In this document: piece after piece, positions 15,177 through 32,290 of the stretch | Numbering within the stretch: position 1 is the stretch's first letter | Layout: every line of letters starts with the position of its first letter | Source: an uncultured Eubacteriales bacterium | GTDB taxonomy: Bacteria > Bacillota_I > Bacilli_A > RF39 > UBA660 | Reading direction: 5' to 3' | DNA: 34,502 nt | Assembly: GCA_900319955.1 (NCBI GenBank) | Contig: ONQM01000009.1 | Coordinates: 1-34,502 of the forward strand | The notes under the pieces: generated by a model | Database searches by the model: none | What the model was told of the DNA's origin: nothing | The model's input: the letters and a program-made list of their open reading frames with translations, nothing else | Made by a program: the position numbers and the translations under genes

Positions 15177-15352
15177 GTAAAAGGTTTCAAAAGAAAAAAT
15201 GTGCTAGAGAATGCGATGCTAGCAGTAAATATTAAACCACATTTATTGCGATACGGGAATCTCGATTACAGTTATCTTGTGTTGAATGCCTAGATGGTTC
15301 CAGGACTCCTAATAGATAAATAGAGACACCCACCTGTACAAACAGGTTTTTA
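15177..15352 (+). ncRNA. Stand-alone structured RNA gene of unrecognised family
   Basis: This 317-base gap between tsf and the SEDS gene has no plausible reading frame but has the anatomy of an RNA gene. A weak promoter (TTGCAC at 15142-15147, TACATT at 15165-15170, 17-base spacing) lies ahead. The body has richer G+C than neighbouring intergenic DNA and a TGCTAG/CTAGCA hairpin near 15202-15224. Two successive terminators follow. It contains none of the SRP, RNase P or tmRNA signatures, no T-box motif and no riboswitch core I know. Size and independent unit would suit a 6S RNA, but I cannot demonstrate the central bubble, so that is only a candidate. Confidence 0.5.
15332..15352 (+). terminator. 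First terminator of the RNA gene
   Basis: ACCTGT (15332-15337) and ACAGGT (15342-15347) around ACAA, running into TTTTTA. Confidence 0.75.
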
Positions 15353-15359
15353 TCGTTTT

Positions 15360-15389
15360 TGCCAAGAACGCTTCTTTGGCATTTTTTTT
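15360..15389 (+). terminator. Second terminator after the RNA gene
   Basis: TGCCAA (15360-15365) pairs with TTGGCA (15376-15381), followed by eight T residues. It backs up the first terminator and overlaps the -35 of the next promoter. Confidence 0.75.
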
Positions 15390-19281: not shown

Positions 19282-20295
19282 ATGTTGGAAGAAGAAATAT
19301 TTAATAAATATAAAGTAAAAGAAAACACTCTATTAGATTATGGATTTAAGAAAGAAAAGAACAAATTCATATTTGAAAAGAAATTCTTAAATAACTTTCT
19401 AGCATCTATTACTATTTTTAATAACAAATTAGAAGGTAAAGTAATAGATTTAGATTTTAATGAAGAATATTCACTATTTAGAGTTAAAGACGAAACATCT
19501 TCTTATGCTAATAAAGTAAAAAATGAATATGAAAATATTTTACTTGATATTAGAAATAACTGTTTTATAGAAATGCCTTTTAGAAGCTGGGAAGCTAATG
19601 AAGTAAATACATCTATAAAAGAAAAGTATGGAGATGATCCGGAGTTTCCATGGAGTGATTTCAATAATAAAGATAGTGCAGTATATAGAGACAAAAAGAC
19701 TAAAAAATGGTATTCATTAATTCAGTACGTTGATATAAATAAATTAGATTCAAAGAAAAGTGGTAAAACAGAAATAATCAACTTAAAAATACCTAGTTCT
19801 AAATATAAAGAAGATGGAATATATCCAGCATATCATATGAACCATGAAAAATGGATAAGCGTTGTACTTGATGGCACTTTGACTATAAAAAGAGTAATGG
19901 ATTTAATAGAAGAAAGTCATGAAAATATTGTTGGAAAAGAAGTGCATACATGGCTTATACCATCTACAGCAGGTAATAGTTACTTTAATTTGGAAGATTA
20001 TTTTAGTAATAAATATATAACTTGGAATCAGTCTACTAAGGTTCATGTAGGAGACAGAGTCTACATTTATGTTGGAGCTCCTTATTCATGTATAATGTAT
20101 AAATGTAAGATAACTAAAATAAATTTGCCTGGATTTTATCATTATAAATATAGTATGGAACTTGAAGTACTAAAAAAATATGAAAGAGGTAAATATAATT
20201 TTAAACTATTAAATAAATATGGAGTGAAAGCAGTTAGAGGACCAAGAAGTATTCCAAATGAATTAGTAGATTTAATTGAAATAAAAAATAAATAG
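19282..20295 (+). CDS. MmcQ/YjbR-type DNA-binding domain fused to an EVE-like domain
   Basis: Two modules in 337 residues. The middle (about 110-215) carries the MmcQ/YjbR (CyaY-like fold) pattern: KKWYSLIQYVD, IINLKIP, PAYHMNHEKWISVVLDGTL, MDLIEESHENIV. The C-terminal third (about 222-337) looks like an EVE/PUA-type reader domain: TWLIPSTAGNSYFNLEDYF, then WNQSTKVHVGDRVYIYVGAPYSCIMYKCKIT. EVE domains recognise modified bases. The N-terminal 100 residues precede it without a clear family. Start at 19282 is set by AAGGTGAT (19271-19278); an in-frame ATG at 19258 lies inside the upstream gene. Function unknown; a nucleic-acid-binding or modification-reading role is inferred. Confidence 0.72.
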   Translation: MLEEEIFNKYKVKENTLLDYGFKKEKNKFIFEKKFLNNFLASITIFNNKLEGKVIDLDFNEEYSLFRVKDETSSYANKVKNEYENILLDIRNNCFIEMPFRSWEANEVNTSIKEKYGDDPEFPWSDFNNKDSAVYRDKKTKKWYSLIQYVDINKLDSKKSGKTEIINLKIPSSKYKEDGIYPAYHMNHEKWISVVLDGTLTIKRVMDLIEESHENIVGKEVHTWLIPSTAGNSYFNLEDYFSNKYITWNQSTKVHVGDRVYIYVGAPYSCIMYKCKITKINLPGFYHYKYSMELEVLKKYERGKYNFKLLNKYGVKAVRGPRSIPNELVDLIEIKNK

Positions 20296-20307
20296 GCTAT
20301 TATTTAG

Positions 20308-20549
20308 ATAGCAAGATAATTCTTGCATACAATAAAAAAGAGAAACATCTAGTTTCCATATGCTAGGTGCTCTCCAATATATTTGTTGATGCGACTAACT
20401 GGTTAAAGTTAAGTGCTTGATTTTTGTTCTATTAAATTAATTCTTAAGAATTATTCTCATGAACCACTGAATTCGAACCCGATAACTATGTTATTTCAAT
20501 AGTAAAAGAAGAAATAGCATATCTTGTAATAGATCTATCGCAATAAAAA
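20308..20549 (+). repeat. Repeated hairpin-rich leader, copy A
   Basis: About 242 bases closely matching 31060-31300. Both copies open with an inverted repeat GCAAGA-x-TCTTGC (here 20311-20326), then a -10-like box (TACAAT here, TATAAT in copy B). A long hairpin GAGA..CATCTAG/CTAGGTG..TCTC (20340-20374) follows, then an AACT/AGTT pairing, a block GAACCACTGAATTCGAACC, a small ATAAC/GTTAT hairpin whose loop differs between copies (TAT here, AAT in B), and the palindrome ATAGATCTAT. Differences fall mainly in loops and single-stranded parts, which favours an RNA function. This copy is joined to a broken gene. Confidence 0.75.
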
Positions 20550-21134
20550 GTATAATAAAAATTTAAATAAAATACTTAAAACAAGTATTACTATATTCTC
20601 AGTTTTAACAATAATAAATTGTATTTGAATAGTGGGTAGTAGCAATGCACTCTTTGAGAAAAGTATTGATAGTAGAAATACCATTAATTTAGCAGCATAC
20701 AAATATAATGCTTGCAAAAGAAAATTTTGTAATTTTGGTTATACAAATACACGACAACTTTTCATTGCCCCCAAAATCAGGCATTTATAAATTGGAAACA
20801 TGGGGGAGCCTAAGGAGGTATTAGAGGATATTCAATTACTAATAGAAATGTTGGTGGATTTGGAGAAAATTGTATTGGTGAAAGCATAAAGTTAAGTAAT
20901 GGTGGATATAATGCTGGAGGAAATTGCTATGCAGATTGTTAACATGCAGGTGGCGGCTCAGGTTATATAGGTAATAGTTTATTATCTGATAAATATATGT
21001 CATGCTATAATTGTGAAACATCAAATGAAGAAACTACTAAAACTATATCTGTTACTTGTGCATCCGAAACTCCAACAGAAGACTGTGCTAAGATAGGTAA
21101 TGGTTATGCTAGAATAACATATGTTGGAAATTAA
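20547..21134 (+). pseudogene. Decayed glycine-rich surface protein gene
   Basis: The first part (20547 to about 20680) reads the same secretion-signal region as the protein at 31391: YNKNLNK, KTSI, FSVLTIINC, then SSNALFEKSIDS. It lacks the start codon and the terminator region found in the intact copy, an apparent deletion of about 100 bases, and has a TGA at 20626. After a scrambled stretch comes the start of a glycine-rich domain (PKSGIYKLETWG, about 20773-20808), a frameshift near 20805-20815, then GGFGENCIGESIKLSNGGY, an in-frame TAA at 20940, and a well-kept tail GSGYIGNSLLSDKY with the end KIGNGYARITYVG before the stop at 21132-21134. The original would have been an exported Gly-rich domain protein. 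Confidence 0.78.
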
Positions 21135-21168
21135 AAAATTAGTTTTGTGAATAAACTAATCTTTTTTT
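21133..21168 (+). terminator. Terminator between the surface pseudogene and sigG
   Basis: ATTAGTTT and AAACTAAT flank TGTGAAT and run into a stretch of seven T residues (to 21168). It terminates the old surface-protein unit and lies before the sigG ribosome-binding site. Confidence 0.8.
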
Positions 21169-21194
21169 ATCTATTACTATATGAGGTGATTATT

Positions 21195-21941
21195 ATTAAT
21201 AAAGTAAATATTACTGGTATTAATACAAATGATTTAAAAGTTTTAACTAGTAGTGAGATGGAAGAATTATTTAAAAAGAAAGATGAAAAATGGGCAAGAG
21301 ATGAACTAATAAATGGTAATTTAAAACTTGTTTTATCAATACTTAAAAAGTATAAAGAAAGGGGTAATTTAGATGATTTATTTCAAATAGGATGTGTCGG
21401 ATTAATTAAAGCTGTTGATAACTTTGACTTTAGTTATGGGGTTAAGTTTTCAACCTATGCTGTTTTAATGATTGATGGGGAAATAAGAAGATATTTAAGA
21501 GATAATAGAATGCTTAGAGTAAGTAGATCAATTAAAGATTTAGCATATAGAAAATTAAAGCTTGAAAGTGAAGAAGGAAAATTAAGCATAGATGAGCTTT
21601 CTAAGAGACTTAATGCAACACCTTATGAAATATCTCTTGCAGAATCTTCTTTTAAAGAACCACTAAGCATTTACAAACCAATATATGAAAATGGAGGAGA
21701 AACTATATATTTATTTGATGAATTAAGTGATGAAAAAGACTCATCTGAATTAAATACACATATTGCACTTTATGATGCTATTAATAAATTAAAAGACAAA
21801 GAAAGATTTATATTAGAAGAAAGATATGTTAAAGGTCGTACTCAAACAGAAGTTGGAAATGACTTGTTAATTAGTCAAGCACAAATATCAAGAATAGAAA
21901 AAGGTGCCGTTAAAAAATTAAAAAAAACTCTTAAATTTTAA
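21195..21941 (+). CDS. sigG: Forespore sigma factor SigG, probable AUU start
   Basis: This is a sigma-70 family sporulation factor of the SigF/SigG group; SigG drives late forespore transcription. Region 2 is AREL-type (ARDELINGNLKLVLSILKKY), then DDLFQIGCVGLIKAVDNFDFSYGVKFSTYAV and GEIRRYLRDNRMLRVSRS; region 4 ends QTEVGNDLLISQAQISRIEKGAVKKLK. The N-terminus NKVNITGINTNDLKVL matches the SigG-specific start. No ATG, GTG or TTG fits. GAGGTGAT (21183-21190) is followed after four bases by AUU at 21195, directly before NKV. The only upstream in-frame start (GTG at 21147) lies inside a terminator. Product about 248 residues. ylmC follows, as in Bacillus. Confidence 0.85.
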   Translation: MNKVNITGINTNDLKVLTSSEMEELFKKKDEKWARDELINGNLKLVLSILKKYKERGNLDDLFQIGCVGLIKAVDNFDFSYGVKFSTYAVLMIDGEIRRYLRDNRMLRVSRSIKDLAYRKLKLESEEGKLSIDELSKRLNATPYEISLAESSFKEPLSIYKPIYENGGETIYLFDELSDEKDSSELNTHIALYDAINKLKDKERFILEERYVKGRTQTEVGNDLLISQAQISRIEKGAVKKLKKTLKF

Positions 21942-26309: not shown

Positions 26310-26386
26310 GGGCGTTTAGCTCAGTTGGTTAGAGCACTTGCCTTACAAGCAAGGGGTCATAGGTTCGAGTCCTATAACGCCCACCA
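26310..26386 (+). tRNA. tRNA-Val (UAC)
   Basis: Cloverleaf with acceptor GGGCGTT/AACGCCC, anticodon loop CTTACAA (anticodon TAC), T-loop TTCGAGT and encoded CCA. First of five tRNAs before the terminator. Confidence 0.97.
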
Positions 26387-26392
26387 TTTTAT

Positions 26393-26468
26393 GCCGAAAT
26401 AGCTCAATTGGTAGAGCAACTGATTTGTAATCAGTAGGTTCCGGGTTCGATTCCTGGTTTCGGCACCA
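26393..26468 (+). tRNA. tRNA-Thr (UGU)
   Basis: Acceptor GCCGAAA/TTTCGGC, discriminator A, encoded CCA. Anticodon loop TTTGTAA between ACTGA and TCAGT, anticodon TGT. 76 bases. Confidence 0.97.
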
Positions 26469-26474
26469 TTTTTT

Positions 26475-26558
26475 GGAGAGATAGCGAAGTGGTTAAACGC
26501 GACAGACTGTAAATCTGTTCCTTCGGGTTCCATGGTTCGAATCCATGCCTCTCCACCA
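26475..26558 (+). tRNA. tRNA-Tyr (GUA)
   Basis: A class II tRNA with long variable arm (TCCTTCGGGTTC region). Anticodon loop CTGTAAA between ACAGA and TCTGT, anticodon GTA. CCA encoded. The seventh acceptor pair is A-C (GGAGAGA against CCTCTCC), whereas most tRNA-Tyr have G-C here. Confidence 0.96.
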
Positions 26559-26562
26559 GAAT

Positions 26563-26637
26563 TGCCTCGTAGCCAAGTGGTAAGGCATCAGACTTTGACT
26601 CTGACATGCGCTAGTCCGAATCTAGCCGAGGCAGCCA
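26563..26637 (+). tRNA. tRNA-Gln (UUG)
   Basis: Acceptor TGCCTCG/CGAGGCA, discriminator G, CCA encoded. Anticodon loop CTTTGAC, anticodon TTG. The T arm reads GCTAG-TCCGAAT-CTAGC, so the base at position 55, normally U (made pseudouridine), is C (26616). Confidence 0.96.
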
Positions 26638-26653
26638 TTTTTGATTTGTATAT

Positions 26654-26729
26654 GGTTCGTTAGCTCAGTTGGTAGAGCATTTGACTTTTAATCAAAGGGT
26701 CTGGAGTTCGAATCTCCAACGAGCCACCA
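26654..26729 (+). tRNA. tRNA-Lys (UUU)
   Basis: Acceptor GGTTCGT/ACGAGCC (one G-T), anticodon loop CTTTTAA between TTTGA and TCAAA, anticodon TTT, CCA encoded. Confidence 0.97.
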
Positions 26730-26743
26730 TTTATGTTTATAAG

Positions 26744-26764
26744 CCGTTGTTAAACAACGGTTTT
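26744..26764 (+). terminator. Terminator after the five-tRNA unit
   Basis: CCGTTGT (26744-26750) and ACAACGG (26754-26760) with loop TAA, then TTTT. Confidence 0.8.
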
Positions 26765-26838
26765 AATATTAAAAAATAAAATAATTTATCTTTTATACTA
26801 TTTTTTTGAAAAAAATAGAAAATATTATTAAAAATTAT

Positions 26839-26867
26839 TTTACTTTTTATAAAGTCTTTGGTATAAT
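26839..26867 (+). promoter_or_regulatory. Promoter of tRNA-Leu
   Basis: TTTACT at 26839-26844 and TATAAT at 26862-26867, spacing 17, between the preceding terminator and tRNA-Leu. Confidence 0.65.
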
Positions 26868-26903
26868 AAAGCTGTGCTTTGAAAAAAGAGACAAAATATT
26901 TTT

Positions 26904-26992
26904 GCTCGAGTGGCGAAATTGGTAGACGCACAGGACTTAAAATCCTGCGAGAATAAACCCTCGTGCCGGTTCAAGTCCGGCCTCGAGCACCA
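26904..26992 (+). tRNA. tRNA-Leu (UAA)
   Basis: Class II tRNA, 89 bases, acceptor GCTCGAG/CTCGAGC, anticodon loop CTTAAAA between CAGGA and TCCTG, anticodon TAA, long variable arm CGAGAATAAACCCTCG, CCA encoded. Confidence 0.97.
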
Positions 26993-31006: not shown

Positions 31007-31059
31007 ACATGAGTATTTTAATTTACTTTAAATAAAAATATATTTATGTTAATATTTAA

Positions 31060-31300
31060 ATAGCAAGAGAATTCTTGCATATAATAAAAAAGAGAAACAT
31101 CTAGTTTCCATATGCTAGGTGATCTCAAAAATGATAGAAATACGCGTAACTGGTCAAAGTTAAGCGCTTGATTTTTGTCCTCTCAAATTAATTCTCAAGA
31201 ATTATTTTCATGAACCACTGAATTCGAACCCGATAACAATGTTATTTCAATAGTAAAAGAAGAAATAGCATATCTTGTAATAGATCTATCACAATAAAAA
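31060..31300 (+). repeat. Repeated hairpin-rich leader, copy B
   Basis: About 241 bases nearly identical in the conserved blocks to 20308-20549. It opens with GCAAGA-GAA-TTCTTGC and TATAAT (31080-31085), then hairpin GAGA..CATCTAG/CTAGGTG..TCTC (31092-31127). The invariant string GAACCACTGAATTCGAACCC (31212-31231), the ATAAC-AAT-GTTAT hairpin and ATAGATCTAT follow. A terminator at 31327 and the gene for an exported protein come next, so this is a transcribed leader or a small RNA gene. It has no long reading frame. It matches no riboswitch or T-box motif known to me. Confidence 0.75.
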
Positions 31301-31326
31301 ATATAAATAGTTACTTTACACTTTTT

Positions 31327-31354
31327 AGGTCAAAAATATTATATTGACCTTTTT
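31327..31354 (+). terminator. Terminator between repeated leader and surface protein gene
   Basis: AGGTCAA (31327-31333) and TTGACCT (31344-31350) around AAATATTATA, then seven T residues. It lies only 37 bases before the start codon at 31391, where no second promoter is evident. Confidence 0.75.
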
Positions 31355-31390
31355 TTGATATCATAAGGGTATGCGAGGATATGGTAAAAA

Positions 31391-32290
31391 ATGAAAAGTG
31401 TAAAGTATAATAAAAATTTAAATAAAATGCTCAAAACAAGTATAGTTACATTCTCAGTTTTAACAATAATAAATTGTGTTGGAATAATTGGAAGCAGTAA
31501 TGCTTTATTTGAAAAAAGTATTGATAGTAAGAATAATTTAAGCATTAATGTTGCAAACCCTTTATATGCAAAATCAGGAGTTGCAACTAATAAAATTACT
31601 GATTTATCAAAAATAGATAAAACTAATTTAGTATATGATGAAACAGCAGATAATAATTTAAGATATATAGGAAAAGATCCAAATAATTATTTTAAATTTA
31701 ATAACGAACTTTGGAGAATAATAGGAATTTTCAATAATCAGTTGAAGTTAATGAGACAAGATGGAATAAATGTGAATGCATGGGATACTAATAAAACTAA
31801 TAACTGGTCTACTTCTTCTTTAAATGAATATTTAAATAGTACATATTTAAATAATTTTGAATCAAGTTCAAAAAATTTGATTTCAAATGGAACTTGGCAC
31901 ATGGGTGGACTAGCTGATGTAGGAAAAACATCTGATTTACTATACGATGAAGAAAAGAAATCCTCTTGGACTGGAAAAATAGGCTTGATTTCTGTAAGTG
32001 AATATGGATATGGAAGTTCTAGTTGTAGTAAAAAAATAAAACTAAGTGAGTATAAAGATTGTACAAGCGATAATTGGTTAAATACAGCTGAATGCTATTG
32101 GACAATAACATCTAAAACAGATTCTGAGAGAAACATATGGCGTATTGGGTGGGATGGTGTAGTAAATAGTGGCTACGTATCAGAAAGAGAAAATGTTAAT
32201 AATGTAATTCCATCATTATATTTAAAACCATCTGTTAAAATAACAGGAGGTATGGGAACTGCTGGTATGCCTTACACTTTGAGTTTATAA
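31391..32290 (+). CDS. Exported surface protein with DUF6273-like domain
   Basis: The N-terminus KYNKNLNKMLKTSIVTFSVL, then TIINCVGIIGSSNALFEKSIDS is a signal or anchor region of the TasA/camelysin-like type, shared with the pseudogene at 20547. The mature part (about 90-299) reads NYFKFNNELWRIIGIF, LKLMRQDGINVNAWDT, NNWSTSSLNEYLNSTYLN and ends RENVNNVIPSLYLKPSVKI, then GTAGMPYTL. That is the pattern of the DUF6273 domain seen in many Firmicute surface proteins, function unknown. The start at 31391 has GAGGAT at 31375-31380. A terminator lies before the gene and another follows it. Confidence 0.8.
   Translation: MKSVKYNKNLNKMLKTSIVTFSVLTIINCVGIIGSSNALFEKSIDSKNNLSINVANPLYAKSGVATNKITDLSKIDKTNLVYDETADNNLRYIGKDPNNYFKFNNELWRIIGIFNNQLKLMRQDGINVNAWDTNKTNNWSTSSLNEYLNSTYLNNFESSSKNLISNGTWHMGGLADVGKTSDLLYDEEKKSSWTGKIGLISVSEYGYGSSSCSKKIKLSEYKDCTSDNWLNTAECYWTITSKTDSERNIWRIGWDGVVNSGYVSERENVNNVIPSLYLKPSVKITGGMGTAGMPYTLSL

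Follow-up and report, generated by a model that had tools for sequence, protein, structure and literature searches.

Two copies of a hairpin-rich element precede the same export-signal coding segment in the window, the 34,502-nucleotide stretch analyzed here (contig 28 of an AT-rich 1.24 Mb draft genome). The locus raises the question of whether this element is a leader that regulates the surface-protein gene behind it or a gene in its own right; an earlier note on this DNA had proposed both an attenuating or riboswitch-like leader and a separate small RNA. Our results indicate that the element is very probably the antitoxin-type small-RNA gene of a par/Fst-like type I toxin-antitoxin family, left in the window as orphan copies whose toxin has decayed.

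The repeated element joins two units

Self-comparison of the window paired positions 31028-31535 with 20276-20680 and recovered the two-copy element described earlier: 31060-31306 and 20308-20555 are about 90% identical, each ahead of the same signal-peptide coding segment. A third full copy is present on contig 37, where the surface gene has been lost, and partial copies are found on contigs 55 and 27 of the same genome. In DNA searches, wide recurrence among relatives was limited to the first ~110 bases of the element. The unit delimited in the earlier note is two joined things, a small RNA (31054-31178) and a surface-gene leader that begins near 31307. Their features are as follows:

31027-31055, + strand: small-RNA promoter, with a weak -35 (TTTAAA), a TATG extension (31045-31048) and the -10 TAATAT (31050-31055), positioned as in relatives
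31054-31178, + strand: gene for the antitoxin-type small RNA, matched by the covariance model at 31054-31174 with 114.9 bits
31063-31078, + strand: 5' stem-loop GCAAGA-gaat-TCTTGC, kept as a stem in relatives by compensatory changes
31079-31094, + strand: unpaired, near-invariant A-rich linker ATATAATAAAAAAGAG, containing the -10 box proposed earlier
31092-31126, + strand: stem-loop 1, with outer stem GAGA..TCTC and inner stem CATCTAG/CTAGGTG
31143-31178, + strand: stem-loop 2 and T run, the small-RNA terminator, whose 5' arm is the predicted toxin-pairing segment in relatives
31307-31390, + strand: separate surface-gene leader, with the arm ACTTTACAC, the hairpin AGGTCAA..TTGACCT plus seven T (31327-31356) and a ribosome site
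31391-32290, + strand: surface protein with the signal MKSVKYNKN.. and a DUF6273 domain
20276-20303, + strand: promoter of the second copy, read from the sequence as TTGAAA, 16 bp, TATTAT and positioned as in relatives
20302-20427, + strand: second copy of the antitoxin-type small RNA, matched by the model at 20302-20423 with 113.1 bits

A structured small RNA with its own promoter and terminator

The hairpins reported earlier are real: the window RNA folds at -31.2 kcal/mol (z -4.4), and an alignment of 12 copies yields three stem-loops. When 119 covariance-model matches were aligned, 22 of 24 stem pairs exhibited changes on both sides, and 88.5% of cells were paired, compared to 76.7% in shuffles. 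The covariation score was 0.420 versus 0.214 for shuffled alignments (0/500 shuffles as high); fitting of this alignment to the structure favors the score, and both slid controls (0.03-0.10) and a MAFFT-based alignment, in which 10 of 17 pairs are compensated, agree with it. Covariation, the check that the earlier note had proposed, is strong in the stems and bears out its suggestion of a separate small RNA. Its remark that the element fits no familiar class likewise holds in Rfam, where the element had no match, to a metabolite-riboswitch family or otherwise. The differences between the window copies, described as restricted to loops, fall mostly in loops and linkers, but not only there. The linker (ATANAATAAAAAAGAG, 31079-31094 and relatives) is almost invariant and no pairing partner for it was found; it is possibly the site of an RNA-binding protein.

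In relatives, the first stem is preceded by a promoter made up of TTGACA, a 17 bp spacer and the -10 TATTAT, with TATG just ahead of the latter. Of 76 loci, 52 have the promoter end at model position 2, and 60 have it no more than 2 bases from there. The TATAAT at 31080-31085, previously read as a -10 box, lies within the conserved transcript, and because the promoter in relatives sits upstream of the first stem, it is most likely transcribed. From promoters placed in this way, the window copies would be transcribed as well. At the other end, a run of at least four T directly follows stem-loop 2 in 90% of matches, compared to 10% at a control position. The terminator proposed earlier (31327-31356) is indeed a hairpin near the start codon, but it is part of the surface-gene leader; the small RNA has its own, at 31143-31178, some 210 bases ahead of the surface-gene start codon.

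The small RNA is concentrated in one bacterial family

Of 193 genomes in the same family, 132 have matches to the covariance model (R1) at an E value no higher than 0.01, the copy number reaching 18 per genome. Among 395 genomes of the class, matches occurred in 33 same-family genomes and one other, and among 295 genomes of the phylum, nowhere beyond the family. The sole match outside the family (locus L302, G365:C32) lies close to one end of a contig of 12 kb and may reflect contamination or transfer. Named public records containing the core motif are mostly from uncultured gut Bacilli, including Candidatus Onthousia, Ventrenecus and Caccenecus; the motif was absent from viral contigs, and Bartonella records with the exact 22-base pattern were taken as chance. 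The RNA family was not found in the open-access literature on uncultured Bacilli, an absence that is no proof of novelty.

Relatives encode a predicted small membrane peptide opposite the RNA

Just downstream of the RNA, the opposite strand of 79 out of 111 usable loci encodes a peptide of 22-41 amino acids with one hydrophobic helix and a strong ribosome-binding site; the same filter applied at two control strands or positions passed 11/111 and 15/111. The other 32 of the 111 lack a peptide under this filter, either because orphan RNAs are common or because the filter is strict. In intact loci the peptide start codon lies 186-257 bases from the RNA 5' end, and the location of the toxin promoter is weakly defined. 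Typical peptides are MKKRTFIIKVLRLIAIILLLLTLLVIAIKI and MKKKDLLISFLILIIILLIVSVMILIIKK (alignment A3); none of five representatives matched Pfam or NCBIfam. Across single-change codons, the dN/dS-like value is 0.22 in the peptide frame, a ratio rather than a test since the codon-change pairs are not independent, compared to 0.75 and 2.27 in the shifted frames. This pattern of codon change indicates that the antisense frame is under purifying selection. The pairing of a small hydrophobic peptide gene with an opposite-strand RNA gene that characterizes type I toxin-antitoxin systems is present in relatives and not in the window copies, where the toxin frame is broken.

The RNA terminator arm matches the toxin leader class by class

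In the main class, the toxin mRNA segment at -35 to -44 from the start contains GAGUGUC, which is perfectly complementary to GACACUC in the small RNA, on the 5' side of its terminator stem. In other classes the toxin leader has AGUACUU, AUGUCUA or GGUACUA and the RNA a matching arm; the leader segment is a direct repeat of the terminator arm. Stretches of at least 6 bases are shared by 42 of 76 cognate pairs versus 12% of other-class pairs, at positions chosen after the output of a free search, and with these post hoc positions class permutation reached the observed complementarity in 12 of 5000 trials. The free search itself, which took the longest direct repeat over whole segments, gave a weak signal (6.45 versus 6.03). 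Whole-molecule duplex energy was rejected as proof of pairing: medians of -29.7 kcal/mol for cognate and -28.0 kcal/mol for non-cognate pairs separate poorly, and the pairing claim therefore rests on the localized arm segment. Through this arm the RNA is complementary to the toxin mRNA, as in type I systems, and the complementarity shifts in step from one subclass to another.

In intact relatives, a convergently read mini-gene on the antisense strand would specify the putative toxin, a ~30-residue membrane peptide, and the RNA would end in a terminator hairpin over or beside the 3' end of that mini-gene. By base-pairing through the terminator's 5' arm with the leader of the toxin mRNA (in the main class, GACACUC with GAGUGUC), the RNA would block toxin production and so neutralize the peptide.

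Window copies are predicted orphan antitoxins

Beside the window copies, what remains opposite the RNA is the following:

31242-31312, - strand: probable truncated toxin frame ending ...LFIFFIVIDLLQDMLFLLLLLK*, with start codon, ribosome site and leader missing and a modest resemblance to the contig 27 toxin frame
20491-20560, - strand: probable truncated toxin frame of the second copy, ending ...IDLLQDMLFLLLLLK*
31211-31249, no strand assigned: ~40-base segment that both window copies have and the contig 37 copy lacks; the toxin remnant is interrupted at its 3' end by this segment

When the remnants were compared to the contig 27 frame, 33 to 116 of 2000 shuffled sequences scored no lower; the similarity is modest, and we therefore grade the remnants as probable. 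The contig 27 frame is fuller (FKINKKNFLITILVLIDLLQAAALIILAL), with ATA in place of a start codon. The contig 37 copy has the same toxin frame as the window, with its stop 134 bases from the RNA 5' end (intact range 79-156). In the window, the surface-gene leader begins where the toxin leader and start should be, and none of the six RNA copies in this genome is accompanied by a toxin frame with a normal start codon. With the start, ribosome site and leader of the toxin gone, the window copies (31054-31178 and 20302-20427) are predicted to be orphan antitoxins. The small RNA copies adjoin a surface-protein gene because a block of RNA, toxin remnant and surface-gene leader was duplicated within the genome.

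Alternative explanations

The element's position directly upstream of the surface gene, in the same orientation and twice in the window, is what speaks for the cis-acting attenuator or riboswitch-like leader of the earlier note. However, the RNA stops at its own terminator well before that gene, it occurs in more than 130 genomes of which few have the surface leader, and the leader exists elsewhere without it. Its common neighbor is the antisense peptide gene, it is not consistently placed within the 5' UTR of any regulated gene, and no metabolite-riboswitch family matches it; we consider an attenuator very improbable. A remnant of a mobile element (IS or MITE) that duplicated the block seems just as remote: one genome has three near-identical copies, and paralogues are numerous elsewhere, but the window contains no inverted repeats of at least 60 bases, the stems covary as RNA, and a MITE would not be expected to keep promoter, terminator and antisense frame in so strict a geometry.

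Orphan copies might instead be kept as trans-acting small RNAs that silence a toxin or other mRNAs elsewhere, as anti-addiction antidotes. In the window genome the six RNA copies retain intact stems and promoters although none has a normally started toxin, and the terminator arm of the contig 55 orphan has CACTTAA, complementary to TTAAGTG in the contig 27 toxin leader. Recent decay would explain the intact stems equally well, however, and any targets of the window copies would be putative; we consider a role in trans unlikely. A wider proposal is that the loci form a type I family of independent origin, marked by the 5' stem-loop and invariant A-rich linker, that has expanded within a single family of uncultured gut Bacilli to a maximum of 18 copies per genome, with toxin-less copies surviving as trans-acting antidotes; we offer it tentatively and hold it to be doubtful.

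Relationship to known type I systems

The preferred reading, an antitoxin-type RNA with decayed toxins in the window, can be compared to several described systems. TxpA/RatA, BsrG/SR4 and the type I systems of Clostridia pair a small membrane toxin with an antisense RNA that overlaps it at the 3' ends. Our loci have the predicted small membrane peptide and the 3'-overlapping antisense RNA in common with these systems (reviews PMC6562991, PMC6563280) and appear set apart by the absence of any Pfam or NCBIfam toxin match and by pairing predicted to be aimed at the toxin leader. In par/Fst, the RNA and the toxin mRNA converge, the toxin has ~30 residues and one membrane helix, a terminator hairpin lies in the overlap, and direct repeats make the toxin leader complementary to the antitoxin (PMC7472228). 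The layout here resembles that of par/Fst (RNA I/RNA II) of plasmid pAD1 and its chromosomal relatives: the predicted transcripts converge and would share a terminator, direct repeats are present, and the peptide has ~30 residues and one helix. In contrast, the RNA here has about 120 bases where RNA II has about 40, it bears an extra 5' stem-loop and the near-invariant A-rich linker, and its predicted pairing lies in the terminator 5' arm. The Fst toxin model (PF13955) matched none of 40 genomes, its control match being in Lactococcus lactis only; the fstAT model (RF01797) matched none of the 40 genomes and none of eight intact or orphan loci, and the control genomes were likewise without a match. 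The RNA has the layout of a par/Fst antitoxin and by analogy probably works like one, with no sequence tie to Fst found.

Together, these comparisons suggest a previously undescribed type I toxin-antitoxin family in which the par/Fst architecture is known and this RNA and peptide are new. An unannotated family, found in about two-thirds of the sampled genomes of one uncultured gut family, thereby gains an RNA structure, a predicted pairing site and a peptide consensus. Automatic annotation likely misses both genes because the peptide and RNA are tiny; the covariance model enables annotation of each. With its numerous copies, its different pairing classes and its abundance of orphan RNAs, the family provides test material for the evolution of antitoxin specificity and for the role of orphan antitoxins.

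The surface-gene leader and its surroundings

The surface-gene leader occurs without the small RNA on contig 27 of the window genome (G000:C27:27150) and at three loci of a sister genome (G006). Its T tracts were located at 31327-31361 in the window, G000:C37:44379-44406, G000:C27:27150-27263, G006:C57:11891-11918, G006:C35 and G006:C63. The tract following TTGACC has 7 T in the window, 17 on contig 37, and 17, 8 and 18 in the sister genome; on contig 27, about 17 T follow the variant motif TTGC. In the window and sister genomes, runs of at least 14 T are found only at surface-gene leaders; in one other member of the genus, such runs are confined to a contig end. Two of the leaders lack the hairpin arm AGGTCAA, so what the leaders conserve is not a terminator. 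These tracts suggest a phase-variable promoter or leader as a better reading than a conserved terminator. Phase-variable promoters are described for the surface-protein vlp genes of Mycoplasma hyorhinis, whose promoter regions include a homopolymer tract (PMC10502178). The likeness is a homopolymer tract before a surface-protein gene (T17-18 in sister leader copies); here, the tract consists of T rather than A, any switching is putative, and the comparison bears on the neighboring surface gene rather than on the small RNA.

A 13-base inverted repeat (31313-31325/31394-31406) allows ACTTTACACTTTT to cover the start region AAAAGTGTAAAGT in the mRNA fold (z -4.3), and ACTTTACA is retained in all six leaders seen. 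As modeled, this fold may block translation of read-through transcripts.

The surface proteins (31391-32290 and L034, L036, L037 and L276) have a common MKSVK signal segment and leader and partly unrelated bodies, and they may be a cassette family that swaps bodies. The surface gene beside the 20308 copy has decayed to a pseudogene with a broken reading frame that lacks the leader, ribosome-binding site and start codon (~105 bases missing). This surface-cassette pseudogene (20547-21134) is fused to the antitoxin element, and its C-terminal part resembles the sister-genome protein L036. Directly 3' of it lies a gene for a sigma-70 family factor with regions 2 and 4 (21147-21941). Rfam matches elsewhere in the window identify a 6S RNA (15198-15386) and a cluster of six tRNA genes (26310-26989).
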